A DNA stretch of 64,000 nucleotides, taken from contig JBFLZW010000030.1 in assembly GCA_040755755.1 (NCBI GenBank), positions 124,001-188,000 of the forward strand. Reading direction: 5' to 3'. Below, in pieces: positions 5,432-24,500 of this stretch (position 1 is its first letter; each line of letters begins with the position of its first letter). The notes beneath the pieces are model-generated. The model was not told the origin of the DNA. It saw nothing but the letters and a program-made list of their open reading frames with translations, and made no database searches. The stretch comes from a bacterium. GTDB lineage: Bacteria; SZUA-182; DTGQ01. The position numbers were made by a program, and so were the translations under genes.

Positions 5432-5476
5432 TTTTCCTGTTCCTTAATTTATATTTAAAAAGCTTTATTTAATAAC

Positions 5477-7903: not shown

Positions 7904-7969
7904 TTTCCTCTTCTCCCCGATAATACTTTGTATACCTGGACTAGGGAATTGCCCATAATACCTTGCCAA

Positions 7970-8966: not shown

Positions 8967-9699
8967 ACACTCCCCTGATGCGCCTGCTGCCCCTGATGGG
9001 CTGTCGTTACCCGACGCCAGTGGCGATTTCTCTCACCGGGTTATCAGGGTTGATCCTCACCGTCCGGAGCCATCGAGTCTCCGGAAGGCAGCCCAAGTAA
9101 TACGGGAAGGCGGTCTGGTGATCTTTCCCACGGATACCCTCTATGGGCTGGGGTGCAGTGCTTTTCATGAGCCCTGCCTCGATCGGATTTTCTCCCTGAA
9201 GGAGCGTCCGTCGGCAAAGCCCCTGCCAGTCCTGGTGAGTGGGCCCGGCCAACTGGCCGAACTGATTCGCGGCCCGGTATCGGCCCTGGCTCACGACATT
9301 ATTCAGGAATTCTGGCCGGGAGCCCTGACCCTGATCTTTCAGGCCGCAGACAGGGTCTTGGCCCGGATAACCGGAGGAACCAAAACTATCGGAGTGCGGA
9401 TGCCGGGCTGTCAGCTTACCCTTGATCTGATCAACCTCGCCCGTGTCCCCCTGGCAGCCACCAGTGTCAATATATCAGGCAGGCCGGTGCATCAGGAAAT
9501 GAGGAGCATGATAGCTGAATGGGCACCAAAGGTTGAGCTGATCCTGGATGCAGGAGCTGTCCAGGGGAATCTGGCCTCAACCGTTCTTGACCTGACCACC
9601 CATCCACCCAGGCTGCTGAGAGAAGGAGCCATCAGTGCCCGAAGACTGCACCGCTATCTTGGCCCGGACCCTGAACCGGATCAAAAGCAGACTGGCTGA
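8920..9699 (+). CDS. tsaC: L-threonylcarbamoyladenylate synthase (TsaC/YrdC family)
   Basis: A 259-residue YrdC-domain protein. It makes threonylcarbamoyl-AMP for the t6A37 modification of ANN-decoding tRNAs. The domain runs from about residue 50 ([60 protein letters not shown]). The Sua5 C-terminal domain is absent, so it is the short TsaC type. The first 45 residues are a low-conservation extension within the purE overlap, so the true start is uncertain; no later in-frame ATG precedes the domain. It overlaps the next gene, another tRNA enzyme, by 65 bp. Confidence 0.92.
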
Positions 9700-11074
9700 A
9701 TTGCCGGTCCTTTTTCAGATCGCAGCCCTTCTTGGTGACATGGGCATATCCGGCTACCTGATCGGAGGAACTATCCGTGATCTTGTTCTGGACCGCCCCA
9801 TCAAGGATATTGATCTGGCCATCACCGCCAGCCCGGAACGTTTTCTGAAAAGGCTGTCCGGAAAAGTTCCCGGCCACTCGGTCTGTCTGGACAGGGAATT
9901 TCTCACCTTCCGGTTTATGACCAAAGATCAGCACTGGTTTGATGTTACACCTCTGAAAGGGGAAACCATCATCCAGGACCTTCACCGGAGAGACTTTACC
10001 GTCAATGCCATGGCCATTGATCTCCAGAATATTGCTGCTCCTGATTCTCCCCTGCACCTGATCGATCCTCTGGGGGGAATCAACGACCTTGCTCAAAGAA
10101 CCATCCGGGCAGTTTCTGAAGAAGCATTTCGCGATGATCCCCTGCGGATACTCAGGGCTTTTCGGCAGGCAGGGCAACTGGGCTGGCGGATCGAGGAGAA
10201 AACCGGAAATCTCATCCGCCGGGACCGGGATCTGCTTAAAAAACCAGCCCCGGAAAGAATCCGGGAGGAATTATTTTTGATCCTTTCGATGGACCATGCC
10301 GGTCCCACCTTCAGCAGGCTGCATCAGAGCGGTATTTTGCCCATCCTTTTCTCCCCGGTTCTGCCGGAATGTCCTGAACGGCAAGAAGCTCCTGAAGGGA
10401 AGGCTCTTGCGGAGGGTAAGCATGGCTGGGCAGATGCCCTGAGGAACCTGGCCTCAGTGGAGGCGATTCTCTCCTGTCTGCCGATCGGCGATCCGGCCTG
10501 CCTTCGGGAAATCCACAGCCTGCTGTCCCGGACTTGCGGGCATCAGGCAACCTATTGGCCGCTATTGAAACTTTCCGCCTTCCTCAGTGCAATGCTCCAA
10601 GGTTGGCCGGCAAAGAACCATGACCGGCTCGATTCCTTCCTCCGGTGGCTATGTCTCAGCACTCCCCAGCGAAAGTATGTCCTTGGCTGCATCCAGGGAC
10701 TGGAAAAACCCCTTGAGCTGATATCAAGCCAATGCTGCACTCCCCGCTATTTCCTCCGCTTCTTCCGGCAGTTCGGTGAAGCCGGCCTCGGTGCCCTGAT
10801 CCTCAGTATAGCCCGCCAGAGGGCGGATAACGTCTCCCCTGACCTAATCAGGGACATGGATGACCTCTTGAGCCGAATGGCAAGCTTTTATTGCACCTGG
10901 CAGCAAATGAAATCCCATCCGCTGGTGGATGGGAACTTCCTTCTTGATTATTTTCACCTTTCGCCGGGTCCCGTCATCGGCGATATCCTCAATTTTCTGG
11001 AGGAAGCCAGAGCCGAAGGAGAGATACAAACCAGAGAGGAAGCCATAGAGCTGGCCAGGCAATTTTTTAACTGA
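9635..11074 (+). CDS. CCA tRNA nucleotidyltransferase / poly(A) polymerase family protein
   Basis: A 479-residue class II nucleotidyltransferase. Head domain: GGTIRD (glycine motif), DIDLA (two catalytic carboxylates), then RRDFTVNAMA and the DPLRILRAFRQAG block that reads the base in CCA-adding enzymes and poly(A) polymerases. The C-terminal half (about 230-479) is less conserved and lacks an obvious HD phosphohydrolase motif. It starts with GTG inside tsaC. Role: add or repair the tRNA 3' CCA end; an A-adding-only or poly(A) role cannot be excluded from sequence. Confidence 0.87.
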   Translation: MPEDCTAILARTLNRIKSRLAELPVLFQIAALLGDMGISGYLIGGTIRDLVLDRPIKDIDLAITASPERFLKRLSGKVPGHSVCLDREFLTFRFMTKDQHWFDVTPLKGETIIQDLHRRDFTVNAMAIDLQNIAAPDSPLHLIDPLGGINDLAQRTIRAVSEEAFRDDPLRILRAFRQAGQLGWRIEEKTGNLIRRDRDLLKKPAPERIREELFLILSMDHAGPTFSRLHQSGILPILFSPVLPECPERQEAPEGKALAEGKHGWADALRNLASVEAILSCLPIGDPACLREIHSLLSRTCGHQATYWPLLKLSAFLSAMLQGWPAKNHDRLDSFLRWLCLSTPQRKYVLGCIQGLEKPLELISSQCCTPRYFLRFFRQFGEAGLGALILSIARQRADNVSPDLIRDMDDLLSRMASFYCTWQQMKSHPLVDGNFLLDYFHLSPGPVIGDILNFLEEARAEGEIQTREEAIELARQFFN

Positions 11075-11458
11075 CCACCGACCACTTATCACCACTCAAC
11101 CCCTCGCTACATATCCCTTTGCAGCAAAATTCCATCCGCATGACGATAGAGATAAGCGTGAAGGCAGAAACAGGAATGAGGAACGCTTTTCTCCCTCGCC
11201 CCCTCAAGGGGGCGAGGGAGAAAATCAGGGAAGGCTGGGTGGGGGTGATGGTTATTATCATCCTCCTCATCGATAAAAGGGGAACATCTGCGGGATCAGT
11301 GAGGAGTCGCCCATGAATGACTTATTCAGGTATTTTTCTCTGTGTTTCTCTGTGCCTCGGTGTCTCTGTGGTATCATTGGTATTTTTTGTCTCTATGGTA
11401 TCATTGACACTTGGAATGAACATCCCTTTACCGGTCCGGAGTCGGAAGAGGTGTCGGC
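11075..11458. other. Intergenic region with long perfect hairpin and CTCTGTG repeats
   Basis: The 384-bp gap after cca holds a 17-bp perfect stem with a TCAA loop at 11187-11224 (stem centre CTCCCTCGCCCCC), of the kind dispersed in many genomes. A run of CTCTGTG/CTCGGTG-like units is at about 11336-11372, and a near-duplicate TATCATTG(G/A) follows at about 11372-11408. No reading frame with a ribosome site was seen. The hairpin lacks a following T-run, so it is a repeat rather than a clear terminator. Confidence 0.6.
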
Positions 11459-11461
11459 TTG

Positions 11462-12727
11462 ATGATCGAGAAAGTGCAGCTTTCTCTGTTTGATCTCCTG
11501 ATGTGTCTTTCCGAGGCCATGGACCTGGTCAGCGATATGGTGGTCAACCACCAGAAACGGGTCAGTTATATAGCCCTGCGTCTGGCTGTGGAGCTCGGAC
11601 TTTCGGTTCAGGAGCAGAATGAATTGATCATTGCCGGAGCACTCCATGATTGCGGAACCTTCTCGCTCAAGGAAAAACTCGACATTTTGCAGTTCGATAC
11701 CCGGCTGCTCTGTGATCATGCTGAGATTGGGTATCAACTGCTGAAAAACTTCCCCCCTCTCAAAAAATCAGCCCTGCTGATTCGCTATCATCATCTCCCC
11801 TGGCAGGATGGACGGGGAAGCGAATGGGCAGGAGAGCCGGTGCCATCAGGAAGCCACATCCTGCATCTGGCCGACCGGATCGACATTCTGGTCGATAAGG
11901 AGCGGGAGATCCTGGGGCAGGTGCGGGGAATCCGCCAGAAAATCTGGGAGCGGTCGGGTACTCTGTTCATTCCCAGCCTGGTGGAAGCCTTCGGAGGGCT
12001 TTCCTCCAAGGAATATTTCTGGCTGGATCTGGCATCTCCCTTTCTGGACGATGTCCTGATCCGGCGCGGGCCGATGTCAACTTTAGAGCTGGGCTGGAAT
12101 GACCTGATGGGCCTTACCAACCTGTTCTGCCAGATCATCGATTTTCGCAGCCCCTTCACCGCTACCCATTCCAGCGGAGTGGCAGCCTCGGCAGAAGCAC
12201 TGAGCCAACTGGCGGGCTTTTCCGAGCGGGAGAGCCGGATGATGAAAATCGCCGGATTTCTCCACGATCTTGGCAAACTGGTTATTCCCTCCGAGATCCT
12301 GGAAAAGCGGGCTCATTTGACTGAAAGTGAATTCAACCTCATCCGCAGTCACAGCTTTTATACCTACCGGATACTGGAGAATATCTCCGATTTGAGCACG
12401 ATCAATGCCTGGGGGTCTTTCCATCACGAGCGGATGGATGGTCAGGGCTACCCATTCCATTACCTCGCCAGGGACCTCCCCCTGGGGTCCAGGATTATGG
12501 CTGTAGCCGATGTATTTACGGCCATTAATGAGGACCGGCCTTATCGCAAGGGATTGACAAAAGAAAGCGTTTTACCGATCCTTCGGGAAATGGCCAGGGA
12601 TAAGGGTCTTGATCCAGCCATGGTTTCAATCCTGGAGCGGCATTATGATGAGGTCAACAGCCTTCGCCTCAGAGCGCAGGAAGTTTCTCATCAGGAATAC
12701 AAGGAAATACTGTCGCCTGCCCAGTAG
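11462..12727 (+). CDS. HD-GYP protein, double HD domain, putative cyclic di-GMP phosphodiesterase
   Basis: A 421-residue cytosolic protein with two HD-fold halves. The first (about 20-125) has NHQKRVSYIALRLA and ALHDCGTFSL, where the HD is intact but the following motif diverges. The second (about 230-390) is a full HD-GYP: HSSGVAASAEAL, FLHDLGKLVIP, SHSFYTY, HHERMDGQGYP and ADVFTAINEDRPYRKGL. HD-GYP proteins hydrolyse cyclic di-GMP. There is no receiver or sensor domain, so activity may be set by the first HD half. A TTG lies one codon before this ATG; GAAGAGG precedes both. It is a single gene, not in an operon. Confidence 0.88.
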   Translation: MIEKVQLSLFDLLMCLSEAMDLVSDMVVNHQKRVSYIALRLAVELGLSVQEQNELIIAGALHDCGTFSLKEKLDILQFDTRLLCDHAEIGYQLLKNFPPLKKSALLIRYHHLPWQDGRGSEWAGEPVPSGSHILHLADRIDILVDKEREILGQVRGIRQKIWERSGTLFIPSLVEAFGGLSSKEYFWLDLASPFLDDVLIRRGPMSTLELGWNDLMGLTNLFCQIIDFRSPFTATHSSGVAASAEALSQLAGFSERESRMMKIAGFLHDLGKLVIPSEILEKRAHLTESEFNLIRSHSFYTYRILENISDLSTINAWGSFHHERMDGQGYPFHYLARDLPLGSRIMAVADVFTAINEDRPYRKGLTKESVLPILREMARDKGLDPAMVSILERHYDEVNSLRLRAQEVSHQEYKEILSPAQ

Positions 12728-13029
12728 TCAGCATCTGCGGATGACTTTCACTATATCAGGGTCCAAGTATTTTCAAGGAATCTCGCATCTCGAATTCAAC
12801 TGCAATATCCAGTTACTGTTCAATTATTGGCAATACAATGTTTAATCATTGAAGACAAAATTTGAACACTACGGTTAAAATTCTTGCAGAATCTGTAAAT
12901 TATTCTTGAATGGCACCAGACAACTGCCCTCCCCGGAATAAGAACTCATGCCATGATCACACTGAGATCACACTGATATAACAGCACTTCCCTGCCTGAT
13001 TATATCCATAAAAAATGGTAATTCTGTGG
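12728..13029. other. Intergenic region upstream of the PEP-CTERM-like gene
   Basis: Moderately AT-rich and non-coding as far as I can see. No strong terminator for the HD-GYP gene was found. The useful content is the sigma-54 promoter just downstream (13030-13045). Confidence 0.4.
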
Positions 13030-13045
13030 TGGTACACAAATTGCA
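13030..13045 (+). promoter_or_regulatory. Sigma-54 promoter (-24/-12)
   Basis: TGGTACACAAATTGCA matches the RpoN consensus TGGCAC-N5-TTGCW at all but one position, with the required GG to GC spacing. It lies about 110 bp before the start of the PEP-CTERM-like gene, on the same strand. PEP-CTERM genes are known to be driven by sigma-54 with the PrsK/PrsR two-component system, so motif and target agree. Confidence 0.75.
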
Positions 13046-13154
13046 GCTTCCTTTTCCCTGAGACCGGAACTGGGTATTTCTCATTGCTGCAAAGCCGATG
13101 GATAGGATTTCTTATAATATTCTAATATCTGTTGTCATCATAAGGAGATAAGCA

Positions 13155-13787
13155 ATGGGTAAAAAGTTATCATTTATCTTGCTCAGTTTTTTACTTATGT
13201 TATGTTCAATGAATAGAGCCAGTGCTACGGTTCTCACCTTCCGGCCCAATCAGCTCAATTCTTCCATCCCGATAGATTTATGGGATTTAGATCATGGCAA
13301 GTATTACCTCTGGGGCATGAGTGGGAATATGCCGACTCAGGAGACCATTGTAAGTGCCTCTTTGTTCATTGATAATATCAATGACTGGGCTGTAGAGCCT
13401 GATGATAGATTATATATCCACTTGCTCGATAATCCTTCCCCGGGTGTCAGGGTGAGAAGTGACTCCGAGGGAGGGGGAGATAATTTTCTCAATCAGGGGA
13501 TTCTGCTCACGACATACACTGATCATAATGAAACGGGACCTCAGCAGAGAAATAATCCTCCGGAAGACTGGAGGTATGTCTTTACTGCCGCCCAGCTTGA
13601 TATTTTCAAGGATTACGCAGGCAACGGGATATGGGGTTTGGGTTTAGACCCGGATTGCCATTACTACAACGATGGAATAACCTTCACGGTGGAAACTGCT
13701 CCTGTGCCTACGCCTTTACCATCCAACTGGTTACTTTTTCTTGCCGGACTCGTAGGATTGGCGGGAACCCGGAGAAAGCTCTGGTGA
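13155..13787 (+). CDS. Exported protein with PEP-CTERM-like sorting signal
   Basis: A 210-residue protein: signal peptide (about 1-24, ending ASA), a 150-residue beta-rich domain of unknown function, and a C-terminal tripartite tail of about 25 residues: short Pro motif (PVPTPLPSNW), hydrophobic helix (LLFLAGLVGLAG) and basic end (TRRKLW). This is the layout of PEP-CTERM substrates, which exosortase/EpsH anchors or releases in exopolysaccharide-producing bacteria. The motif is VPTPLP rather than VPEP, a tolerated variant. AAGGAG sits 7 bases before the ATG. No exosortase is in the window, so it must be elsewhere. Transcription probably comes from the sigma-54 site upstream. Confidence 0.75.
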   Translation: MGKKLSFILLSFLLMLCSMNRASATVLTFRPNQLNSSIPIDLWDLDHGKYYLWGMSGNMPTQETIVSASLFIDNINDWAVEPDDRLYIHLLDNPSPGVRVRSDSEGGGDNFLNQGILLTTYTDHNETGPQQRNNPPEDWRYVFTAAQLDIFKDYAGNGIWGLGLDPDCHYYNDGITFTVETAPVPTPLPSNWLLFLAGLVGLAGTRRKLW

Positions 13788-13872
13788 CATTTCGGAGTCT
13801 TTTTCGGGAAATGTCGATAACCCTGTGCCTGTCCACCATTGACCAGATTCCCAAAAAATATTGACAATCCAA

Positions 13873-13901
13873 TTGACAGGTAAGCTGGTACATGGCATAC
13901 T
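13873..13901 (+). promoter_or_regulatory. Possible sigma-70 promoter for the TonB-receptor operon
   Basis: TTGACA at 13873 is followed after 17 bp by CATACT, a standard -35/-10 arrangement. It lies about 375 bp before the receptor start, leaving a long structured leader. A second TTGAC(T) at 13912 could be an alternative. Confidence 0.4.
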
Positions 13902-13924
13902 TATATATCAGTTGACTATATAAA

Positions 13925-14278
13925 ATCAGGGATGAACCCTGGACATGGAAAATATCAGCCTATACCCGCCCCTGCTGGGCCAGGTTCAGGAGATCGGGTA
14001 CAGGTTAAGACAGGCAGATCAAAAGCCCTGGAAAAGGGCTGTCTGAAAAAAGCCATGAAGGCTTTGAGCCGACGGGAAAAATCGGCGCAAGGTATTCATG
14101 GCTTTTTTTGTTTTTCAGCTCCCGCCTTGGCCGAAAAACCCGGTCTATCTGTCCGGCAAAAAACCCGGTCTATCTGTCCGGCATTGCCTTAATTGGTCAT
14201 ATTCTTCAATTCAAAGTATGGTTCAATTTACCATGTTACCGTGTTAGCGTGTTTTTCAGTCCAAAGGAGGAAAATGGA
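13925..14278 (+). promoter_or_regulatory. Long structured leader of the TonB receptor gene, with terminator-like hairpin and 25-bp tandem repeat
   Basis: The leader holds AGCCCT-GGAAA-AGGGCT (about 14022-14040) and a large stem whose arms AAAAAAGCCATGAA (14046-14059) and its complement (14095-14108) pair perfectly and end in seven T, like an intrinsic terminator. A smaller GCCGA/TCGGC hairpin nests inside. Then a 25-bp unit (core ACCCGGTCTATCTGTCCGGC) is repeated twice at 14133-14182. A terminator inside a leader suggests attenuation or a riboswitch. It matches no class I can recognise (cobalamin, GEMM, Moco). Confidence 0.5.
14046..14110 (+). terminator. Rho-independent terminator-like hairpin in the receptor leader
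   Basis: A perfect 14-bp outer stem (14046-14059 with 14095-14108) followed by T's, enclosing a smaller hairpin. It stands about 170 bp before the receptor start, downstream of the proposed promoter, so it would stop the receptor transcript unless unfolded. The alternative is simple termination of upstream transcription. Confidence 0.55.
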
Positions 14279-16252
14279 ATGCTGAAAATGTTGAAATGGT
14301 TTGGTAAAGGAATATGCATTTTTCTCTTCAGTATGTCTTTCCTTGTTGGTTTCCGGTGCATTGTCCTGGCTGAGGAAAAACCTCAGCCGGAGAGGGTGCT
14401 GCAGCTCGATGAAGTCAATGTCGTGGCCTCACCGATCATCGAGGAGAACCAGGTAACCAGGTACGGCAGTCAGGTGACGGTAATCAGCACCGAGCAGATA
14501 TCCGACCTCAATGCCCAGGACCTTCCTTCCGCCCTGCGGAGGACTCCGAGCGTGATTATTTCCCGGCATAATCCCATCGGCAGCTTTGGGGGAGGCACGG
14601 GGGGCACCATATTCATCAGGGCGCAGGGCAGCTCCCGCCCCGGTGCCGAGATTCAGACCCTGATCGATGGAATTCCCAAATTTTCCGGGGTCTGGACTCA
14701 TCCGCTCATGGATTCCCTCAGCATCGATCCGGTCGAGTCGATCGAGGTCTACAAGGGGGCACAGCCGGTGCTCTATGGCAACATGGCCTTCGGGGCCGTG
14801 AATCTGGTAACCAAAAGAAAAAGAAAACCCGGTTTTTCCACCAGCCTTCAGGGATCAGGGGGATCGTACAATACCTGGGTAGAGGTTACCGAGCATGGCG
14901 GCAAGATCGATGCCTTCGATTATTATCTCATCCAGAGCTACCGCAAATCCGATGGTCACCGGGATAATGCCGATGGCGAGGTCAAGGATTATTTCGGACG
15001 GATGGGGTATGAATTATCGCCAGCCTGGGATGTCAGCCTGACCTTGAACCGCACCGACAACTGGGCTCTCGATCCGGGACCGGAGGGCAGACCCCGGGAT
15101 GCGCAGGGCAAGTTCAGTATCAACGATTCCATGACTGTCCTGGCCCTGTCCAACCACTATGAACGGGCTGACGGGTATTTCAGGCTCTATTGGGACAAAG
15201 GGGATATGGACTGGGAAGATCAGCCGGATACCAAGAAACCCAACCGGGAGCTTTTCGATACCCTGACCGACTACACCAACTACGGCTTTCGTACCCGGCA
15301 GATCATCACTCCCTGGGAAGCTGGCGAAATCATGGCCGGGTTCGATCTTGACTTTTTCGGCGGCAGGGTGACGGAGGTCCGGCCTTCGGGTAACAAGCGG
15401 ATGGACCGCGAAACCTTCCGCCTGGCAGCTCCTTACCTGGCCATCAGCCATCAGTTTGGCCCCAAAGAGAGCTGGCACCTTACGCCTTCAGCCGGTGTGC
15501 GCTACCTTGACCACAGTCAGTTCGATGACCAGTGGGGTCCGCAGGCAGGCATGATCCTGGGATATAGGGAAACGCAATTGCATGCCTCCTACGCCAGAGG
15601 GATCAATTACCCCGGCATCAATGTCATTGCCCAGTCGTATCTTTCCTGGGGCCGCAATACCCTCTGGAGAAATCTCGATCCTGAGATCCTTGATCATTTT
15701 GAAGTGGGACTGTCCCACACATTCAGCCCGATGATCAGGGCCGATGCTACCGCCTTTCAGGATAATGGCCGGGACCGGTTCCGGTTTGTGGCTCCGCCGC
15801 CTCCCCCTGCGCATTTTGAAAACATCGAGACCTACAAAACCAGGGGAGTCGAGACCACGATTACCCTGACCCCGTCCCCCGATCTGGCCTTCTTTGCCGG
15901 TGGGACCTATCTTGACGGTGACCCCTATGACCTGCCCAATGTTCTCAAATGGAGCGGCAGCGCCGGAGCCACCGTGCGGTTCCTGAAACACTTTCAGCTC
16001 AGCCTCGATACTCTCTACCTCGATGAGCACTATGTCACCAATCCCCGCTTCCCCGGCGCACGGGACAAGGTCGGATCAGCCGCTCTCCTGAACGGTAAGT
16101 TGAGCTATAATTTTACCATTCAGCCGGTGAAGAAGTTTGACGGACAGATTTACCTGGCCGGAGAGAATCTCCTGGACAGAGAGTATGAGTACAAAAAGGA
16201 TTACCCCATGCCCGGCATCAACGGAATGGCCGGATTAACCGTGAAATTTTAG
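14279..16252 (+). CDS. TonB-dependent outer-membrane receptor
   Basis: A 657-residue receptor. A signal peptide (about 1-30) is followed by the TonB-box region (LDEVNVVASP), plug domain (about 45-155: ALRRTPSVII, IFIRAQGSSRPGAEIQTLIDG in parts, VESIEVYKGAQPVLYGNMAFGAVNLVTK) and a 22-strand barrel to the C-terminal Phe. Such receptors import scarce ligands (chelated metals, cobalamin, some sugars) using TonB-ExbBD energy. The chosen ATG is preceded by AAAGGAGG; an upstream frame to 14108 lacks this and has no signal peptide. It is 30 bp from the nucleoside hydrolase/FmdE gene, so they form an operon. No ABC importer or TonB is adjacent. The ligand is unknown; the FmdE-like partner hints at a metal or oxyanion. 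Confidence 0.92.
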   Translation: MLKMLKWFGKGICIFLFSMSFLVGFRCIVLAEEKPQPERVLQLDEVNVVASPIIEENQVTRYGSQVTVISTEQISDLNAQDLPSALRRTPSVIISRHNPIGSFGGGTGGTIFIRAQGSSRPGAEIQTLIDGIPKFSGVWTHPLMDSLSIDPVESIEVYKGAQPVLYGNMAFGAVNLVTKRKRKPGFSTSLQGSGGSYNTWVEVTEHGGKIDAFDYYLIQSYRKSDGHRDNADGEVKDYFGRMGYELSPAWDVSLTLNRTDNWALDPGPEGRPRDAQGKFSINDSMTVLALSNHYERADGYFRLYWDKGDMDWEDQPDTKKPNRELFDTLTDYTNYGFRTRQIITPWEAGEIMAGFDLDFFGGRVTEVRPSGNKRMDRETFRLAAPYLAISHQFGPKESWHLTPSAGVRYLDHSQFDDQWGPQAGMILGYRETQLHASYARGINYPGINVIAQSYLSWGRNTLWRNLDPEILDHFEVGLSHTFSPMIRADATAFQDNGRDRFRFVAPPPPPAHFENIETYKTRGVETTITLTPSPDLAFFAGGTYLDGDPYDLPNVLKWSGSAGATVRFLKHFQLSLDTLYLDEHYVTNPRFPGARDKVGSAALLNGKLSYNFTIQPVKKFDGQIYLAGENLLDREYEYKKDYPMPGINGMAGLTVKF

Positions 16253-16282
16253 GGAAGGCCAGAACCTGTGGAGGATACAATT

Positions 16283-17872
16283 ATGAATTTGGTCCCCAAA
16301 AATACACCCGGAAGAAGGCTGCCGCTGTCCGGCAGGCGGCTGGTGGATGTGCTGGCCGCGGCAGGGTTCCTGCTGGCGCTGACAGCAGCCCTGTTGTGGA
16401 TGGGCCAGGCGGCAGTCGTACCTTTGGCATATGCCCATGAGATAAAGATTCCGGTCATTGTGGATACTGACATGGCCCTCGATGATGTGCGGGCACTGGC
16501 CATGATGTTCAACTCTCCGCACGTCGAAGTCAAGGCCGTTGTCACTGCGGATGGCTCATCATCTGCGCAGGCCGGATACCGGAACCTGCTTCGCATCCTG
16601 AAGTTTCTGGAAGCCCCGGAAATTCCGGTGGGAAGGGGAAAGAGTCTGGATCAGCCGCCGCCTGCCTGGAGGGAGCGTTCGGAATCGCTCGGCTGGGCAC
16701 AATTGCCTGCTGCTGCCGCTGCTTCCGCCGCCGCACAGGAATCGGCTCCGGAGGCCGTATCGGTAATTATCAGTACCCTCTCCAAAGCAGAGGACACGAA
16801 AATAACCTATGTCTGCCTCGGCCCGCTCACCAACCTGGCCGGGGTACTCGAGAAAAATCCTTCAGCCAGGGACCGGATCGCAGGCATTCTCTATGCAGGC
16901 ACACCGCCTGATGCGCCGGATCCGGACTGGAATACCAGCCGGGACCGTCAGGCAGCCAGGGCGGTTTTCAGTTGCGGTCTTCCCCTGTATACCTTCTCCA
17001 CCGGGAGTCCGGGCGGGAGTGCGGAGCCGTTCAGCTTTGATTCTGAGCTGCTTCAGGATATCCGGAAATACAGCACCAGGTCCGCCCGCCTGATAGACCT
17101 CCTCCACAGCGACAGCAGGATGCAGAAGCTCATGCAGAATCGGCACTTCAAGATCTGGGATGAACTGGTGGCCCTCTACCTCAATGACTCTTCCCTGGGG
17201 GGCAGGGAGCCGGTCCAGATTAAGAATAACCTCTTTGCCTTTTCACAATGGGATTGGAAAACAGTCCGGCCTGCCTATCTGGAACTGGTATCCGGAATTG
17301 ACAGCCAGAAGCTCAGCCCCAGAATTCCGGTTATTCTCGAACAATACCCTACCAATCCTGGTGATTTTCGGGAAGACCTGCGCCCTTTGATTCCCAAGAT
17401 CATTGCTGTTCACGGAGTTGAAGAATGGAAAGCCGCGCTTCTGACCAATGAGCTTCATCGTCACCTGGGGATTTATTCTATCTTCGGGGCAAAAATGGGC
17501 ATCCGGGCCAGAGAGATTCTCGGTGCCTCTCTGGATGAGCTTTCCGTCGAGAGCATGGCCGGGTTGAAACCGCCTGTAAGCTGCATGAACGACGGCCTGC
17601 AGGTATCCACCGGGGCCAGCCTGGGCAGGGGGACCATACGGGTTATCGAGGAAAAGGCCCTCCCTGAAGCCACCTTCGTCTTCGGTTCCAAAAAACTTCA
17701 TATGCGGATAAAAGATGATATCCTCAAACGTATCCAGGCCGATATCAAAGACATCGTTCAGCGCTTTGGATCATTGACCCCCCAGTACTTCGAGGAGGTC
17801 AGAAAACTTTCCTTCCGGTATTGGGCGGACATGAACCGCAGCCAGATATTTGAGGAGACACTCGGAGAGTGA
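16283..17872 (+). CDS. Exported nucleoside hydrolase fused to an FmdE-like domain
   Basis: A 529-residue protein. An N-terminal hydrophobic segment (about 20-45) suggests export or a membrane anchor. Residues about 55-370 resemble IunH nucleoside hydrolases: VDTDMALDD supplies the Asp cluster that binds Ca2+ and ribose, and VCLGPLTNLAG is the second conserved block. Residues about 385-529 resemble FmdE (PF02663): H-R-H-L then GIRAREILG, SCMNDGLQVSTGASLGRGTI and a FVFGSKKLHMRI strand. In classical FmdE the first block is HGHxCPG; here the Cys-Pro-Gly is missing. GGAGG lies 8 bases before the ATG at 16283. It directly follows the TonB receptor. Function of the fusion is unknown. Confidence 0.75.
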   Translation: MNLVPKNTPGRRLPLSGRRLVDVLAAAGFLLALTAALLWMGQAAVVPLAYAHEIKIPVIVDTDMALDDVRALAMMFNSPHVEVKAVVTADGSSSAQAGYRNLLRILKFLEAPEIPVGRGKSLDQPPPAWRERSESLGWAQLPAAAAASAAAQESAPEAVSVIISTLSKAEDTKITYVCLGPLTNLAGVLEKNPSARDRIAGILYAGTPPDAPDPDWNTSRDRQAARAVFSCGLPLYTFSTGSPGGSAEPFSFDSELLQDIRKYSTRSARLIDLLHSDSRMQKLMQNRHFKIWDELVALYLNDSSLGGREPVQIKNNLFAFSQWDWKTVRPAYLELVSGIDSQKLSPRIPVILEQYPTNPGDFREDLRPLIPKIIAVHGVEEWKAALLTNELHRHLGIYSIFGAKMGIRAREILGASLDELSVESMAGLKPPVSCMNDGLQVSTGASLGRGTIRVIEEKALPEATFVFGSKKLHMRIKDDILKRIQADIKDIVQRFGSLTPQYFEEVRKLSFRYWADMNRSQIFEETLGE

Positions 17873-18026
17873 AGAAACATCCGGGGGACAGCCCCTGATA
17901 TTTCCTGGTAAATGTCAAGAGAGCTGCCCCCTTCGATGCTCTGCATGTTGATTAGTTTGACAAGACAAACCATTTTTGAAATACTAGAGAAGAATTGAAC
18001 AACTATAAAAGTAAGAGGGTAGAGAG

Positions 18027-18266
18027 ATGAACAAGACTGCTTTAAAAAAGCATGAAATTTATAATAAGTTAACAGAACTTACCGAGCAGGAATTAGGTTC
18101 TATTGCTGATTATGTCGATTTTATGCGGCACAAGAAGCAGCTTGAAGAGGGAAAAACCATCAGACTGGAAGGAATCCTGAAGGGCTATCACATTGATCTT
18201 TCCTTTTTGAAAGAACTTAAGGAAAAGACATGGAAACATGTGGATGAGGAATCTAGCGGTGAATAG
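18027..18266 (+). CDS. Antitoxin of a PIN-type toxin-antitoxin pair
   Basis: A 79-residue protein: N-terminal helices (YNKLTELTEQELGSIADYVDFM, seen in two halves) in the style of short DUF2281-like antitoxins, then a charged tail that would bind the toxin. AGAGGG precedes the start. Its end overlaps the PIN gene by 23 bp in another frame, the standard order for vapBC-like modules. With its toxin frameshifted, it may now be a solitary repressor. Confidence 0.6.
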   Translation: MNKTALKKHEIYNKLTELTEQELGSIADYVDFMRHKKQLEEGKTIRLEGILKGYHIDLSFLKELKEKTWKHVDEESSGE

Positions 18267-18647
18267 CTATGTTACCGATACTCAGGCATTGATAAAGTTT
18301 GTGATGGGGCAAAAGGTTATCAATCACAACTGTCATCAGGCTTTTTGGTCTGCTGATCGGGGTGAAAATATTTCATTATTCCTGCTGTAGTCTTGATGGA
18401 AGTTCTGTACCTATTTGAAAAGAACAGGATCAGGATCAATCTGCTTCAAACAGAAGATCTTATGAAAAGCAGGAACTATCAATTCGAGCCACTCAGTCTG
18501 GATATCCTTAAAACAGCTTCCGAAATAACCGACATCCCCGAATTACACGACCGGCTTATTGCTGCCACAGCCAGATACTTCGATGTTCCCCTCATTACGA
18601 ATGATCCGGTGATCCGGCAATCGAAGTTTGTTAAGATCCTGGAATAA
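18244..18647 (+). pseudogene. PIN-domain toxin, broken by a one-base frameshift
   Basis: From 18244 the frame gives the PIN start (SYVTDTQALIKFVMG...ADRGE) and stops at 18388. Moving one base at about 18366 restores FIIPAVVLMEVLYLFEKNRI, then DIPELHDRLIAATA and VPLITNDPVI, ending at 18647. Together they form a complete PIN ribonuclease of about 133 residues with its acidic residues (D of VTDT, E of LMEV, D of LHDR, D of TNDP). The break lies in a GAAAATATTTC run: a real single-base deletion or a sequencing error. VapC-like toxins cleave RNA. It overlaps its antitoxin. Confidence 0.8.
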
Positions 18648-19077
18648 TATAATCCTGATCGACCTCTTGATTAATCCACAGCTATCAGATTTCTGAGAAA
18701 GGCTCTCAGAAATCTGAGGTTCCATGACAATATCTGATTACCAAAGCTCAGGCACGATAGTCAGATTACCTCCTTTAACCTGCTGATAAACCTTTCTTTT
18801 AGCTAATCCATCTTATTATCCCCACATTCTGGAATTTGAAAAACCACGATGGCATGAATATTGCTATAAGATATAGTAAATAAAAATTCTGATCTATTTA
18901 TCCATATATATTGCACAGCCATTGGCAGGGTAACAGAGATTGTCGTCTTCCTTTTTCACCTTATAGCCAAAAAGGACAGGTCATTATACTGCAAACGGGT
19001 TAAAAACTTTACTTTTTGTCGAGAATTAGGTTATCAGTGGAGCATTACCAGGCTCTCAGCGAAAGGAGTGGAGCGAG
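18648..19077. other. AT-rich intergenic region with a perfect 14-bp hairpin
   Basis: At 18685-18717 a perfect inverted repeat (TCAGATTTCTGAGA, 5-base loop AAGGC) follows the PIN gene and may terminate it, though no T-run follows. The rest is AT-rich and should contain the promoter of the inhibitor-like gene. No other reading frame is convincing. Confidence 0.5.
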
Positions 19078-21099
19078 ATGAAATCAAGAGACAGGTATAA
19101 AAGAGTTCCTTTTTTTGGTGTTTTTTTACTTATTTCCGGCTTAGCTGTTTCGACAGCTTTTGCCCAAAGTCGCCTGTACAGCCAATTGTATAGTCAAAGT
19201 GTGAGTAACCCGATATCGATATCGGTCCTGTTGTATGATCCCCCATCAGGCTCATCAGCCGGTGATTTGCCCTGGATCACTGAGGTGAATCAAAAGGAAG
19301 GTTCAGCACCTTACCTGTTCTCCTATCTGCCCTGGTCTTTTCCTGAATATAATACCGGCTATAAGCCGGTTATGAGCTTTGGTCTCAGGCAGCAGGCCAC
19401 TTTCTCTGATTCTGCCTCGTATAAGAGCTATCGGAACAACTATCAGGGGTATTGGGACTCCCTGCAATACGACTACACCCCTGGCCTGCCCCGGTGGGGA
19501 TATGGCTCCTCCGATACCTATGGGATATTTGGAAACCCCTATGGGAGAGCCTATGGCCTGATTTTTAATTTCAATGATTTCTTCGGCTTCAAGCCTTCTG
19601 TCATTAATCCTTCCCCGAAGGAGGCGGCTGCTCTGGAATGCACGGCAGTAACGGACAAAACCGGGTATGAGAGCGGAGAACCGGCTGCCATCACCTTTAC
19701 GGTAACCAACACGGGGGGACAGCCTGCTGACCTTCATTTTTCTTCCGGAAAACAGTATGATATTATCATTAAGGATGAAGCGGGAAATCAGGTCTGGCAG
19801 CAATCCCGGCACCAGTTCTATACCCTTAGTCTGGCCAATCTGGTAGTGCAGCCGGGGGAAGTAAGAACCTACCGGAGCCAGTGGGATCAAAAGGACGACC
19901 AGGGGGCACCGGTTTCAGGAGGGGTCTATACCGTGGAAGCCTTCCTGACTCCTTCCGGCAAAGATTATCAGATCGGCGCTTCCACCAGGCTGTCGATTGC
20001 AGATCTGATTATCGATGAATCATACCATGAAAAGACTATTCATATCAGCCAGGGGAGCCTGGTCCAGATCAACCTGAAAGCCAATGTCTCGACCGGCTAT
20101 CAATGGCAGGGAGAGTGGGACACATCGTTGATGGCATTGCATGACCACTCCTATCTTGACTCACCCGCTGGGCTGCTCGGCACGGGTGGCACCGATGTAT
20201 GGCTCCTGAAAGCTCTGGCCGCAGGAGAAACGGCCCTGTCTTTTACCTGCCATCGTCCCTGGGAGACCGGAGTCGATCCGGCACAGGAGTTTATCGTGTA
20301 TGCCGTAATCGATACGGTCAGCCAGCCTCCCGACACTCCTCCCGCCCTGCTGGCAGCACCCTTGACCTATACCGTAAGAACGGATAAGGCCTTGTATTCT
20401 CAGGGGGAGGAAATTATCATTACCTTCACGGTAACAAATTATCGTGGAGCTGAGCCGATTACCCTTAACTTTACCTCTGGCCAGAGATTTGATGGTGTGG
20501 TGAAAGATAGCGCAGGCAAAGAGATATTTCGATTATCCGACAACAAGTTCTTCACTCTCAGCTTGGCTTTCATCGAACTGGAGCCGGGAGAAACCCTGAG
20601 CTTTCAGGACCGATGGGACCAAAAGGATAGTCAGGGTTCCCTGGTGCCGCCTGGAACCTATACCCTGGAGGCCTTTTTAACCTCCTCTGATTATTCAGGA
20701 AAAGATGCTACTACGATTACGATTGGTGAACCCCGCATTAAGAGCTTCGCCAACAGCGGCTGCAAGACCGCAACCCGGGGGGATGTTTCCCTGTCCTTAA
20801 CCGAGGAACTTAAATTCAGCTATAGTTATCAACAGGATAGTGGTATCCTTTTCCTGAAGCATACCAATGCTTCCTTCAACTGCTGCATCGAAGAGATCAC
20901 GGTAACCATGAGCATAGAGGGCCAGGTTATCAACGTCTATGAAGAAGAGAAGTTAAAGGGAAGCGGATGCCGCTGCATGTGCAACTACGATATTACTGCC
21001 GAAGTGGTCGATCTGCCTGCCGGTACCTATGAGGTGAACTTTTTCAATAAATCGAGCGGAAAATTGTCCGGAACTATCCCTCAAGTAATTATTCCTTGA
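19078..21099 (+). CDS. Secreted multidomain protease-inhibitor-like protein: BsuPI - chagasin (I42) - BsuPI
   Basis: A 673-residue exported protein. Signal peptide (about 1-30), then a Tyr/Ser/Pro-rich region to about 180. A BsuPI-type domain (about 185-305) has ITFTVTNTG, FSSGKQYDIIIKD, WQQSRHQFYTLSL and WDQKDDQG. A chagasin-like domain (about 315-415) shows all three loops that block papain-type active sites: STGYQW, GTGGTD and RPWE. A second BsuPI domain (about 440-555) repeats the first (FTSGQRFDGVVKD, WDQKDSQG). The C-terminal 110 residues carry paired cysteines (FNCCIE, GCRCMC). BsuPI and I42 proteins inhibit serine and cysteine proteases, so a dual inhibitor is inferred. AAAGGAG precedes the ATG. 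Confidence 0.85.
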   Translation: MKSRDRYKRVPFFGVFLLISGLAVSTAFAQSRLYSQLYSQSVSNPISISVLLYDPPSGSSAGDLPWITEVNQKEGSAPYLFSYLPWSFPEYNTGYKPVMSFGLRQQATFSDSASYKSYRNNYQGYWDSLQYDYTPGLPRWGYGSSDTYGIFGNPYGRAYGLIFNFNDFFGFKPSVINPSPKEAAALECTAVTDKTGYESGEPAAITFTVTNTGGQPADLHFSSGKQYDIIIKDEAGNQVWQQSRHQFYTLSLANLVVQPGEVRTYRSQWDQKDDQGAPVSGGVYTVEAFLTPSGKDYQIGASTRLSIADLIIDESYHEKTIHISQGSLVQINLKANVSTGYQWQGEWDTSLMALHDHSYLDSPAGLLGTGGTDVWLLKALAAGETALSFTCHRPWETGVDPAQEFIVYAVIDTVSQPPDTPPALLAAPLTYTVRTDKALYSQGEEIIITFTVTNYRGAEPITLNFTSGQRFDGVVKDSAGKEIFRLSDNKFFTLSLAFIELEPGETLSFQDRWDQKDSQGSLVPPGTYTLEAFLTSSDYSGKDATTITIGEPRIKSFANSGCKTATRGDVSLSLTEELKFSYSYQQDSGILFLKHTNASFNCCIEEITVTMSIEGQVINVYEEEKLKGSGCRCMCNYDITAEVVDLPAGTYEVNFFNKSSGKLSGTIPQVIIP

Positions 21100-22019
21100 G
21101 GAGAGGCATTCTTACCTACGCGGCCAGTCAGCCCCCTCCCCCTTACTCTCCTCCCCCAGAGGGGCCAGAGGGGAAGGGATAAGGGGAGAGGGGGCTCCAG
21201 TCATAGCCTGTCCCGAAATGCATCCCGGTATGAAACGTTTACCACGCTTACCTGTCCACCCAATGCCGGTCAACGATGAAGTTTGTTCCCGAGCCTTTTG
21301 TATTATTGACTTCACAATAAAGGTAACTCTTTCAGAGGCATTGAGGTTGTGATGGTTTCGACGAAATTGGAGTACCTTGGCATATTTAGGCAGAATGGCA
21401 CTGAGACCGTGCACGATAATTGATGGACTTGATTTCACGGTATTTGAGGGGAACCAGATACCAGTTGCTGATATTTTACCGTGAAAATATTGGGGGACCA
21501 AGGGCAAAATCCTCCCTTCCCGTCAACCTGCCGGTTTATACAGGCTGGATTGCAGCCCACGGAGAGTGGGGTTAACTCAAATTTACCTGTGCTTGTACAG
21601 GCCAGTAGCCATACTTCTTCAGTGCCTTTATCCACGGGTGCATTACCGATTTGTTACGAGTATGGCAACCATTCCCCGTCCCCGCTTAATACCTGCGGGG
21701 ACAAGGTTCTGCAATCGGCCATCATGCAAAGCAATCGTCATTCCCGCGCAGGCGAGAATCCAGAAGCCCGGTAAAACGCATATTGCCTCATGGATAACCA
21801 CTATCACCTTGTGTAGAGACAATTGAGGGCAACCTTTCCCCTGGCATGCGCCACCTGACCCCTGACTGTGCTGGCATCTTTTCGGTTGACATGACAGCAT
21901 GAGAGGCATTATGATAATTCACTTTATTCACCAGCTTGAATCGTTATCCGCCAGCTTGAATGTATGGCAGGGATTCATGCTTTATATACCTATTTACCAG
22001 GAGGCTTGGAAAACCGGAA
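21100..22019. other. 920-bp non-coding region with decayed repeats
   Basis: It holds a C-rich/G-rich inverted repeat (about 21128-21196) and a REP-like palindrome beginning CGTCATTCCCGCGC at 21736-21763. Just after lies a short relic of a REP-associated transposase. A minus-strand frame (21112-21507) looks like a decayed gene or chance; I recognise nothing in it. The promoter of ettA must be near the right end. Confidence 0.5.
21736..21816 (+). pseudogene. REP palindrome plus relic of a REP-associated (Y1/RAYT) transposase
   Basis: The GTCATTCCCGCGCAGGCGAG repeat is a widespread REP type. Fourteen bases later, codons at 21778-21813 spell AYCLMDNHYHLV before a stop. This is very close to the HUH catalytic segment of IS200-like RAYT transposases (consensus YxLMxNHxHL). 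Nothing else of the gene remains, so it is a fragment. The short match keeps confidence moderate. Confidence 0.5.
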
Positions 22020-23708
22020 ATGAGCAACAACATACCGAACAAGGTCATTTACTCCATGATCGGAGTCAGTAAATATTACGGCAAGAGAGCGGTCCTCAAG
22101 GATATTTATCTTTCGTACTTCTACGGTGCCAAGATAGGCGTTATCGGACTGAACGGCTCAGGGAAAAGCTCGCTGCTTCGGATCATGGCCGGAGTCGATA
22201 AGGACTTTCTCGGCAAGACCGCCATCTCTCCCGGTCATACGATCGGCTTTCTCGAACAGGAGCCGCAGCTTGACGAATCAAAAACAGTGCGGGAAATTGT
22301 AGAGCAGGGCGTCCAGGAAACGGTCGATCTGCTGAAAGAGTATGAAAAGATCACCGAGAGATTTTCCGAGCCGATGTCTGACGACGAGATGGCCTCACTC
22401 CTCGATCGCCAGGGGGTGGTGCAGGAGAGGCTCGATGCCCTCAACGCCTGGGACCTTGACAGCAGGCTCGATATGGCCATGGATGCCCTGCGGTGTCCGC
22501 CCGCGAGTACCCCGGTCAAGGTTATTTCCGGCGGTGAGCGGCGGCGCGTGGCCCTCTGCCGCCTGCTTCTTCAGGAGCCGGATATCCTGCTGCTCGATGA
22601 GCCGACCAACCACCTCGATGCCGAATCGGTAGCCTGGCTGGAGCAGCACCTGCAGCGCTACCCCGGCACGGTCATTGCCGTGACCCACGACCGCTATTTT
22701 CTCGACAATGTGGCCGGATGGATCCTCGAACTGGACCGGGGGGCCGGTATCCCCTGGCAGGGCAACTATTCATCCTGGCTGGAACAAAAGCAGGTCCGCC
22801 TCCAGCAGGAAGAAAAAGCCGAGACCGAGCGGCAGAAAACTCTCCAGCGAGAGCTTGAATGGATCAGGATGACGCCCAAAGGCCGAAGCGCCAAAAGCAA
22901 GGCGCGCCTCAATTCCTACGAGACCCTTCTGGCCCAGGAGAGTGAGAAACAGGCGCGTGACCTTGAAATCTATATTCCGCCCGGCCCCCGGCTGGGGAAT
23001 GTGGTCATCGAGGCGGATGGCATCAGCAAGGCCTATGGAGACCGGCTTCTGGTGGAGAACCTGACATTCTCCCTGCCACCGGCAGGTATCGTCGGTGTGA
23101 TCGGACCGAACGGGGCTGGAAAGACGACGCTGTTCAAGATGATCACCGGACAGGAGCAGCCGGACAGCGGAACCTTCCGGATCGGCGAGACAGTCAAACT
23201 GGCCTATGTCGATCAGAGCCGAAATGCTCTTGATCCGGATAAGACGGTCTGGGAGGTGGTCTCGGACGGCCTCGACACGATTCAACTGGGGAGCAGGCAG
23301 GTCAATTCACGGGCTTATGTCGCCCGGTTCAACTTTTCGGGCACGGATCAGCAAAAGAAAGTCGGCACACTTTCCGGCGGCGAGAGAAACAGGGTCCATC
23401 TCGCCAGGATGCTGAAAGAGGGGGCCAATGTGATCCTTCTCGATGAGCCGACCAATGATCTCGATGTCAATACCCTGCGGGCTCTTGAGGAGGCTTTGGA
23501 AAACTTTGCCGGTTGCGCGGTGGTGATCAGCCATGACCGATGGTTTCTCGACCGGATCGCCACCCATATCCTTGCCTTTGAAGGTGACAGCAAAGTCGTC
23601 TGGTTCCAGGGCAACTATTCCGATTACGAAGCGGACCGAAGAGCGCGGCTTGGCGCGGCAGCAGATCAGCCCCACCGGATCAGATACCGTCAGTTGACCC
23701 GGAAGTAG
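22020..23708 (+). CDS. ettA: ABC-F translation factor EttA (energy-dependent translational throttle)
   Basis: A 562-residue soluble ABC-F protein with two ATPase domains. First: GLNGSGKSS Walker A, SGGERRRVALC signature, LLLDEPTNHLD Walker B. Second: GPNGAGKTT, SGGERNRVHLARML, LLDEPTNDLD. The linker between them is charged (PtIM, about 245-305: EWIRMTPKGRSAKSKARL), and the start VIYSMIGVSKYYGKR is EttA-like. EttA binds the ribosomal E site and gates entry into elongation by ATP/ADP ratio. Start chosen at 22020 by family alignment with AGGAGG upstream; an ATG at 21960 would add 20 unrelated residues. It appears monocistronic. Confidence 0.93.
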   Translation: MSNNIPNKVIYSMIGVSKYYGKRAVLKDIYLSYFYGAKIGVIGLNGSGKSSLLRIMAGVDKDFLGKTAISPGHTIGFLEQEPQLDESKTVREIVEQGVQETVDLLKEYEKITERFSEPMSDDEMASLLDRQGVVQERLDALNAWDLDSRLDMAMDALRCPPASTPVKVISGGERRRVALCRLLLQEPDILLLDEPTNHLDAESVAWLEQHLQRYPGTVIAVTHDRYFLDNVAGWILELDRGAGIPWQGNYSSWLEQKQVRLQQEEKAETERQKTLQRELEWIRMTPKGRSAKSKARLNSYETLLAQESEKQARDLEIYIPPGPRLGNVVIEADGISKAYGDRLLVENLTFSLPPAGIVGVIGPNGAGKTTLFKMITGQEQPDSGTFRIGETVKLAYVDQSRNALDPDKTVWEVVSDGLDTIQLGSRQVNSRAYVARFNFSGTDQQKKVGTLSGGERNRVHLARMLKEGANVILLDEPTNDLDVNTLRALEEALENFAGCAVVISHDRWFLDRIATHILAFEGDSKVVWFQGNYSDYEADRRARLGAAADQPHRIRYRQLTRK

Positions 23709-23796
23709 AGGGTTAGGGAGCGAGGGGAACCGCTATAAACTATCAATCTGCCGGGATTGCCGGCCTCTTCATACAAGAAGGCGGAGAAATTCTCAG

Positions 23797-24387
23797 ATGA
23801 AAAAATTCGGTGCGGTATTCGTGCTTTTTTCCAGTTTGGTGATTTTTACCCGCGACGGCTCCTGCGCTCTGAAAGATCGATTGGTGGACCCGCATTATCT
23901 CAGACCTCCGTCGGCAGTTGCCTGCCGATTATCGTATGGCGGAGTGAATTCGAGCACTGTCAGCAAAGCACTCCACGACCTTCGGGGAGGCAGTCTGGAA
24001 TTTGAATATGAAAAGACGGGTTCTTCGAACCCGTTTTCAGGGGTAATCGGCCTCGGTTACCTTAATCTTGACAATAGTTCCGCCTCGGTGACAGCTTATC
24101 TGAAAGGCCCCTTTCTGAAAGCCGGAGTCAATCTCATAGCCTTTTCCTCTCCCTCCATGGATTTCAAACTCGGTCCCGATATCCGATTTATCCAGATGGA
24201 AGTAGCCGATAAGGATAACAGCGAGAAATCCTATACGGGAATAGGCATGGGAATCAACCTGGCGGTAAATATCTCGATCAAACCAAAGTGGTTTGCGGGA
24301 GCCGGTATCAGGGAGGGAATCCTGAACTTCGGCAACGAAGAACTCAAGACACGATACCTGTTTCTCACCCTGCAAAGACTCCTCTAG
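23797..24387 (+). CDS. Small exported protein, probable outer-membrane beta-barrel
   Basis: A 196-residue protein with a signal peptide (about 1-24, SCA). The mature part is made of alternating strands with many Gly and aromatic residues (IGLGYLNLDNSSASVTAYL, in parts), suggesting an 8-strand barrel. No family recognised. GGCGGAGA lies about 11 bases before the ATG. Its last codons and stop are duplicated in the flank (24362-24420). It precedes a lipoprotein gene on the same strand, 113 bp away. Confidence 0.5.
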   Translation: MKKFGAVFVLFSSLVIFTRDGSCALKDRLVDPHYLRPPSAVACRLSYGGVNSSTVSKALHDLRGGSLEFEYEKTGSSNPFSGVIGLGYLNLDNSSASVTAYLKGPFLKAGVNLIAFSSPSMDFKLGPDIRFIQMEVADKDNSEKSYTGIGMGINLAVNISIKPKWFAGAGIREGILNFGNEELKTRYLFLTLQRLL

Positions 24388-24420
24388 TGTTCTCTCACCC
24401 TCCAAAGGGCTCCTCTCGTG
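24362..24420. repeat. Imperfect tandem duplication of the 3' end of the barrel gene
   Basis: A unit of about 28-31 bp (TCTCACCCT-CAAAG-CTCCTCT-GTG) occurs twice in a row: once across the stop codon and once just after it, with a few substitutions. It is a local slippage or duplication event that does not change the protein. Confidence 0.6.
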
Positions 24421-24500
24421 CTGTTTGCCTCATACCGGACCATCCTATGAAATCGTTGCGAAACCGTTATGAGATCATGCTGATATCATAAGGAAACTGT

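Follow-up and report, generated by a model that had tools for sequence, protein, structure and literature searches.

What purpose does a bacterium have in joining a nucleoside hydrolase to an FmdE-like domain, giving the product a hydrophobic N terminus and encoding it directly behind a TonB-dependent receptor? This question was raised by an ORF in a 64,000-nucleotide stretch of a bacterial contig, here called the window. A preliminary description, made from the sequence alone, had suggested that the pair takes up a ligand carrying a ribosyl bond or a metal, and, from a link of FmdE to molybdenum-type chemistry, had considered an oxyanion or cofactor scavenging role conceivable. The genes and domains concerned are as follows.

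14279..16252, + strand: TonB-dependent receptor (PF07715 plug; NCBIfam; start by AGGAGG)
16253..16282, + strand: intergenic gap of 30 bp with a ribosome-binding site, same-strand operon (sequence)
16283..17872, + strand: exported nucleoside hydrolase-FmdE fusion, 529 aa (ORF, Pfam, relatives, predicted model)
16283..16435, + strand: hydrophobic N terminus, aa 1-51, apparent signal peptide or anchor (sequence; alignment of relatives)
16436..16438, + strand: His52, expected first residue after cleavage (alignment of relatives)
16442..17299, + strand: nucleoside hydrolase domain, aa 54-339 (Pfam profile at aa 58-311; fold match)
17453..17731, + strand: FmdE domain, profile at aa 391-483 (Pfam; fold match), in a conserved block that begins near aa 345 and reaches the C terminus

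Profile searches recovered both halves of the protein. IU_nuc_hydro (PF01156) matched aa 58-311 with 109.6 bits against a Pfam gathering score of 34.2, and FmdE (PF02663) matched aa 391-483 with 36.4 bits against 22.9; the FmdE scores of three relatives (L079, L081, L082) were 41.4 to 48 bits. These were the only Pfam families in the window protein, in which neither DUF4198 nor the NCBIfam NikL models found a match. The AlphaFold2 model of the full-length fusion, built with 13 family members, had a mean pLDDT of 76.6 and a pTM of 0.57, with aa 341-392 below a pLDDT of 50, and does not fix the mutual placement of the two domains. In this predicted model, residues 54-339 matched nucleoside hydrolases throughout (RihA 3g5i, Z 30.7, rmsd 3.0, 268 aligned residues; VIA-align). 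Residues 345-529 modelled alone (pLDDT 74.6, pTM 0.72) matched the FmdE structures 2gvi (Z 14.5), 2glz (13.5) and 3d00 (10.3), the next unrelated row being at 6.7. The preliminary description, which had named IunH-type and FmdE-type domains in one polypeptide and had allowed that the C-terminal part might fail to match FmdE, was therefore right on this point by both profile and fold. The ORF at 16283-17872 is confirmed as a real fusion, and not a chance one, because the whole architecture was found again in 22 further genomes. It is the only PF01156 gene of the window genome, which has five FmdE loci, the fusion included.

The long hydrophobic stretch of the fusion protein ends in ...AYA|HEIK. 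Relatives have typical signal peptides, and we infer from these sequences that the protein is exported, as had been supposed from its N terminus. In the alignment, 22 of the 23 fusions have His as the residue right after the apparent signal peptide, and L084 has Asp there. The same His lies directly behind the apparent signal peptide of two FmdE-only relatives, L081 and L082, whose N terminus is AHE. In the accessible text of PMC12537917, DUF4198 is a secreted nickel binder whose free N-terminal His binds the metal with a Kd of 18 nM, and its genes adjoin TonB and NikR genes.

Relatives were sought in a genome collection described as holding one genome per species, for 84,980 species. A two-row alignment as query recovered them, and a single-protein query of the same collection recovered none. 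The alignment scan gave 16 loci: 14 fusions, counting L047 and L048, which end at contig ends before FmdE, and two loci (L050, L051) with the nucleosidase part and no FmdE, which stand outside the final set. This set comprises 23 fusions, the window's included, and is accompanied by the two exported FmdE-only proteins, which are not among the 23; together they occur in 25 genomes. The handles L002, L026 and L040 denote one gene, counted once. Three truncated fusions (L047, L048, L080) belong to the 23, lack some alignment columns and were kept outside the tree. Carriers include metagenome-assembled genomes (MAGs) of Desulfobacterota, Verrucomicrobiota, Acidobacteriota and Aminicenantes, and identity is 39-44% for the 12 further fusions that were aligned. 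In whole-genome samples at E <=1e-40, which include the seed genomes and carriers known before, matches were found in 9 of 395 genomes (phylum of G060; two of the nine FmdE-only), 1 of 387 (phylum of G073) and 9 of 293 (order of G073). Of four genomes in the family group of the window, two have the full fusion. The survey drew on 1,207 genome look-ups altogether. A plasmid search returned 22 records, none covering 80% of the query, and the 20 listed match the nucleosidase part; a phage search found nothing. The architecture is thus rare but real. A tree of the C-terminal part places L079 next to the window protein (support 97/94) and joins this pair to the Verrucomicrobia members (98/94); only inner forks were used, because the deep outgroups have very long branches.

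Two members depart from the common form. The fusion frame of L080 (8345-9490) stops inside FmdE, and FmdE residues are found further on in different frames, which means either a broken gene or assembly errors at this place. At L083 (7686-9953) the reading frame of the fusion continues through the final three quarters of CbiM, from CbiM position 47, and this nucleosidase-FmdE-CbiM ORF may be a true triple fusion or an assembly deletion or artefact. Separately, a nucleoside hydrolase domain ends an 832-aa ORF at L010 (91-2589), whose N-terminal parts have no assignment.

We then considered the receptor and its surroundings. The stop of the receptor gene at 16252 leaves the 30 bp noted earlier before the fusion gene at 16283, both on the + strand, with GGAGG about 8 nt 5' of the ATG. 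The receptor ORF opens at TTG 14108, with the likely start at ATG 14279 after AGGAGG. Its plug was confirmed (PF07715, 67.2 bits), and the Pfam barrel model gave no match at E up to 1; the protein weakly resembles several TonB receptor families, the best NCBIfam stretches lying mainly in its N-terminal part. Between a PEP-CTERM gene and the receptor are a terminator-like hairpin with 27-bp arms ending in a T run (14046-14108) and two tandem copies of a sequence of about 25 bp (14135-14186). On the other side of the fusion, a small antitoxin-like ORF is followed by two ORFs resembling, by eye, a frameshifted PIN-type toxin (18027-18647).

The proposed association with TonB genes held for part of the family. 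Within 6.5 kb, a range shortened where a contig ends, a TonB receptor accompanies 13 of the 23 fusions (window, L036, L037, L039, L040, L041, L042, L043, L047, L077, L078, L079, L080); the other ten have no TonB gene in reach, partly since contigs end, and the fusion itself is rare. In the same range we counted nickel-type genes, defined as DUF4198, CbiM/NikM, NikR, or NikL above its cut-off. Such a gene is found near 11 fusions: DUF4198 near L036, L037, L040 (match taken from the identical locus L026), L043 and L079; CbiM/NikM near L046, L049, L079, L083 and L085; NikR near L048 and L049; and NikL near L041. The NikL-like genes of L037 and L079 score below the NCBIfam cut-off and that of L080 was seen by similarity only, and none of these was counted alone. 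The remaining 12 fusions, the window's among them, have no strict nickel-type neighbour, and four (L044, L045, L084, L086) have neither a TonB nor a nickel-type gene in reach. A neighbour of L038 had appeared by eye to be a metal transporter with HX4DH, a motif of such transporters; it matched DsbD_2 just below the Pfam cut-off and nothing in NCBIfam, and was not counted.

The fusion gene adjoins nikMQO-type or NikR genes at L046, L048, L049, L079, L083 and L085, as do the FmdE-only genes of L081 and L082, and does not do so in the window. The two FmdE-only genes, which encode no nucleosidase domain, lie 5' of CbiM, CbiQ and ABC ATPase genes, with NikR additionally in front of that of L081 (neighbours of L081 and CbiM of both by Pfam or profile; CbiQ and ATPase of L082 by similarity). 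L079, the nearest relative of the window protein, comes from a 4.5-Mb contig of a 4.5-Mb genome, where the cluster spans about 9.6 kb from the CbiQ-like gene to the fusion:

958-1959: CbiQ-like (NikQ-like; by eye)
1928-2548: CbiM (NikM; profile match)
2977-3324: NikL-like (96.6 bits against an NCBIfam cut-off of 100)
3379-4377: DUF4198/NikK (Pfam)
4611-6344: double ABC ATPase (Pfam)
6561-8714: TonB receptor (similarity)
8850-10532: fusion, last gene of the cluster (Pfam)

Judged by its genes, this cluster is a putative nickel (or cobalt) route that leads from the outer to the inner membrane and has the fusion at its end. CbiM was found in 19 of the 25 carrier genomes and a NiFe-hydrogenase match in 18, and the six and seven absences should be read with the caveat that most carrier genomes are probably incomplete MAGs. 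The window genome has four CbiM genes and NiFe-hydrogenase genes. In Verrucomicrobia, an exported-looking family of about 380-480 aa adjoins the fusion, mostly divergently (L049 6238-7446, L048 8625-9866, L083 6425-7573, L085 6913-8301, L086 6387-7841), with a pilin-like gene alongside and, in L048 and L049, NikR as well; the L049 member has no Pfam match.

The proposed uptake of a metal is supported, but the neighbours of the fusions point to nickel (or cobalt) as that metal, and not to molybdenum or an oxyanion. The latter idea rests on the FmdE name, which links the family to molybdenum only through its naming after a molybdenum operon, and on molybdate-type ABC genes seen by eye downstream of the L041 fusion. 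No molybdate gene was recognised beside the other fusions read, nickel genes predominate in the contexts, and the FmdE structures, in the portion of PMC2954224 available, bind Zn/Ni by His and Cys and not oxyanions. By eye, the ORF listings for the loci read showed no genes of a formylmethanofuran dehydrogenase operon; according to the same portion, most FmdE family members likewise lack this operon. Handling of molybdenum or another oxyanion, already disfavoured, is very improbable.

Cobalt is the main rival to nickel. In a cobalt- or corrinoid-scavenging protein, the nucleosidase part would act on a ribazole-type N-glycosidic bond while FmdE would take cobalt from complexes or incomplete corrinoids. 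An exported protein of the tetrapyrrole-methylase fold adjoins seven of the 23 fusions (L036, L037, L040, L043, L047, L077, L080; PF00590 confirmed in L026, the L040 locus), and the CbiM models, which do not tell Ni from Co, carry a cobalt name. However, no methylase-like neighbour was found by the window gene, by L079 or by the Verrucomicrobia members, NikR, NikL and DUF4198 are among the neighbours, and an Rfam scan of window 9000-25000 detected no riboswitch, so no cobalamin riboswitch. We consider the cobalt explanation unlikely, although it deserves more weight than any of the other alternatives.

It is odd to find an exported methylase fold of the SAM type by TonB receptors (L026 11864-15791, L036 8320-9231, L043 5019-6032), because SAM would not be expected in the periplasm; the exported protein may bind a tetrapyrrole or metal complex. 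A cluster of this kind is also present in the window genome (L030, G000:C8, 8960-15978), with a TonB receptor, an exported PF00590 protein, DUF4198, a permease, a NikL-like gene and FmdE. Another FmdE gene of the window genome, at L032 (G000:C33, 9726-18820), adjoins transport genes of the ECF type and genes for a small His-rich protein and for a large CobN-like one, as judged by eye.

Next, we searched the promoters for signs of nickel-dependent regulation. GTGTTAC is the NikR half-site of delta-proteobacteria (PMC545781, accessible text). It occurs eight times in 147 kb of 11 loci, which were picked after some had been viewed, and six of the eight are within about 4 kb of promoter sequence. 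The promoter copies belong to five loci (L038, L039, L046, L048 with two, L049), and the half-site is missing from 19 of the 24 scanned upstream regions, that of the window among them. Among the loci scanned, only L039 has a convincing full site, GTGTTAC-N13-GTAGCAC with one mismatch, between the divergent receptor and fusion genes; a full-site scan of window 13000-16400 found nothing within 3 mismatches. E. coli-type NikR sites in L036, L037 and L045 were taken as chance, since shuffled sequence gives 0 to 3 such matches. NikR itself is encoded in 7 of 14 carrier genomes, namely all of those from Verrucomicrobia, Acidobacteria and Aminicenantes and none of the other seven, and is absent from the window genome.

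To see what the two domains could do, we surveyed conserved residues in an alignment of 25 members, that is, the 23 fusions and the two FmdE-only proteins. The sites in the window protein are:

16463..16486, + strand: DTDMALDD calcium/ribose motif, aa 61-68 (aligns with DCDPGHDD of 1yoe)
17156..17161, + strand: Trp292-Asp293, the last calcium-ligand Asp after Trp, not His (alignment to HD of 6ba1)
17456..17464, + strand: His392-Arg393-His394, two predicted metal ligands, HxHxG for HxHxC (alignment; ligands from PMC2954224, accessible text)
17582..17584, + strand: Cys434, counterpart of the fourth FmdE metal ligand (alignment; PMC2954224, accessible text)

In FmdE structures, the Zn/Ni ligands are HxHxC and a distant Cys (PMC2954224, as far as accessible). 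Three of the four are kept in the fusion (H392, H394, C434), and Gly396 replaces the third, a Cys; His392, His394, Gly396 and Cys434 are kept in all members covering those columns. The metal-ligand check called for at the outset thus gave a retained HxH and Cys with one ligand changed throughout. SYN_00638 likewise lacks two of the FmdE metal ligands, and Axelrod et al. (2010) reported Zn/Ni in the FmdE domain and metal-ion transporter genes adjoining most family members (both PMC2954224, accessible text).

In the nucleosidase domain, the four Asp of DTDMALDD (D61, D63, D67, D68) and Asn217 with Trp216 are present in all 23 fusions, Thr/Ser183 is kept among them, and Asp293 is kept in every fusion whose sequence covers that column. 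Asn168, Glu166 and the ribose contacts are among the residues with known roles in nucleoside hydrolases. The leaving-group His of group I nucleosidases is replaced by Trp292 in the alignment to 6ba1, and alignments show other residues in place of the catalytic His and of the Glu in the AEFN motif. Trp before the last Asp is the pattern of group II nucleoside hydrolases, in which it stacks on the base (PMC8910321, accessible text); this weakened our idea that Trp292 marks a cationic leaving group, as Trp is normal in such enzymes.

The group II pattern, the complete nucleoside hydrolase fold of the predicted model and the kept Asp motif, Thr/Ser183, Asn217 and Asp293 would also suit an ordinary periplasmic nucleosidase that scavenges nucleosides, with FmdE as a structural or regulatory appendage, and a Gate-domain (nucleoside recognition) gene lies 3' of L044. 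However, with the exception of L044, the loci read showed by eye no gene for nucleoside transport or base salvage beside the fusion, the catalytic His and AEFN Glu are replaced, and the FmdE-only relatives with the same N terminus are in nikMQO operons, which makes simple scavenging improbable. Those FmdE-only forms, L081 and L082, manage without a nucleosidase domain, and XopQ and Sde_0182 have NH-like domains devoid of nucleosidase activity (PMC8910321, accessible text), as would be expected if the domain were catalytically dead, a furanose-binding or spacer module in a protein that only binds metal. The calcium and ribose residues are nevertheless kept in all covered fusions, and a mere spacer needs none; we give this possibility about as little credence as scavenging.

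In scattered bacterial groups, relatives lie beside nickel-uptake genes, and the fusion is therefore likely to be a helper, so far little known, that gathers nickel or frees it outside the inner membrane. The FmdE-only form occurs by itself in nikMQO operons, which suggests that the central task falls to the FmdE part and that the nucleosidase part adds something, most simply the handling of a furanosyl moiety on the carrier. The explanation that we favour, with reasonable though far from full confidence, is that the fusion is an envelope nickel-acquisition protein, and as such an accessory factor of metal uptake, in which the FmdE site and the N-terminal His bind Ni and the nucleosidase part handles the furanosyl moiety of a nickel carrier. 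The carrier would cross the outer membrane through the TonB receptor. The fusion, exported to the periplasm, would take over nickel via the two His and one Cys of the FmdE site, probably with help from the mature chain's free N-terminal His, and the nucleosidase domain would bind or hydrolyse the ribosyl-like (furanosyl) part of the carrier. The next recipient of nickel would be a partner of the NikK/NikL type or, directly, an inner-membrane transporter of the NikM type. Domains, folds, conserved residues, neighbourhoods and promoter half-sites are what the analysis shows; the choice of nickel over cobalt, the path of delivery and a nucleosidase activity, if there is one, are inferred from there on. 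The case for the metal is indirect, as the window gene has no nickel gene beside it and its genome has no NikR.

A stronger variant would make the protein a nickel-releasing glycosidase, which frees the metal from a metallophore with an N-ribosyl ligand by hydrolysis. The nickel-pincer nucleotide is a nickel ligand of the pyridinium riboside/nucleotide type, and microbes might exchange a nickel complex with a similar N-ribosyl bond. After import by the TonB receptor, the nucleosidase domain would cut the N-glycosidic bond, with Trp stacking standing in for protonation by His, and the FmdE site would capture the freed metal. We regard this chemistry as a long shot.

Nickel acquisition by the fusion, if true, would give the FmdE family, which is known mainly through the name of a methanogen operon, a testable function in nickel trafficking. 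Little is known of how nickel passes through the outer membrane and periplasm, and the nickel carriers identified so far are few; a conserved exported protein that has both a metal site and a sugar-bond hydrolase fold, encoded by TonB and nickel ECF genes, offers a direct handle on the form of the imported nickel complex. In a literature search that left most subscription journals outside, no single paper combined FmdE with nucleoside hydrolase or with TonB, and for FmdE and nickel only the FmdE structure paper seemed relevant at the level of titles and listings. Within that scope, both domains are known, and no publication was found on their exported union or its link to nickel transport.

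Among known systems, NikK (DUF4198) and NikL of the NikMQO nickel ECF transporter resemble the fusion in being exported, in lying, for part of the fusion family, near nikMQO, NikR and TonB genes and in their N-terminal His, but belong to unrelated sequence families without FmdE and nucleosidase domains. The FmdE proteins of PF02663 (Dhaf_2992 2glz, Ta1109 2gvi, SYN_00638 3d00) share the core fold, HxH and Cys, and metal-transporter neighbours; unlike them, the fusion is exported, is joined to a nucleosidase, has Gly for the third ligand Cys and has no C-terminal zinc finger. With the PF01156 nucleoside hydrolases (RihA, YeiK, T. vivax IAG-NH) it shares the full fold, the Asp calcium site, Asn217 and a group II-like Trp, whereas it is exported, about 200 residues longer, without the catalytic His and AEFN Glu, and linked to metal uptake. 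The multidomain NH-like Sde_0182 and XopQ place the NH fold outside nucleoside salvage, as the fusion does, but are not described with FmdE or nickel in the accessible text of PMC8910321.
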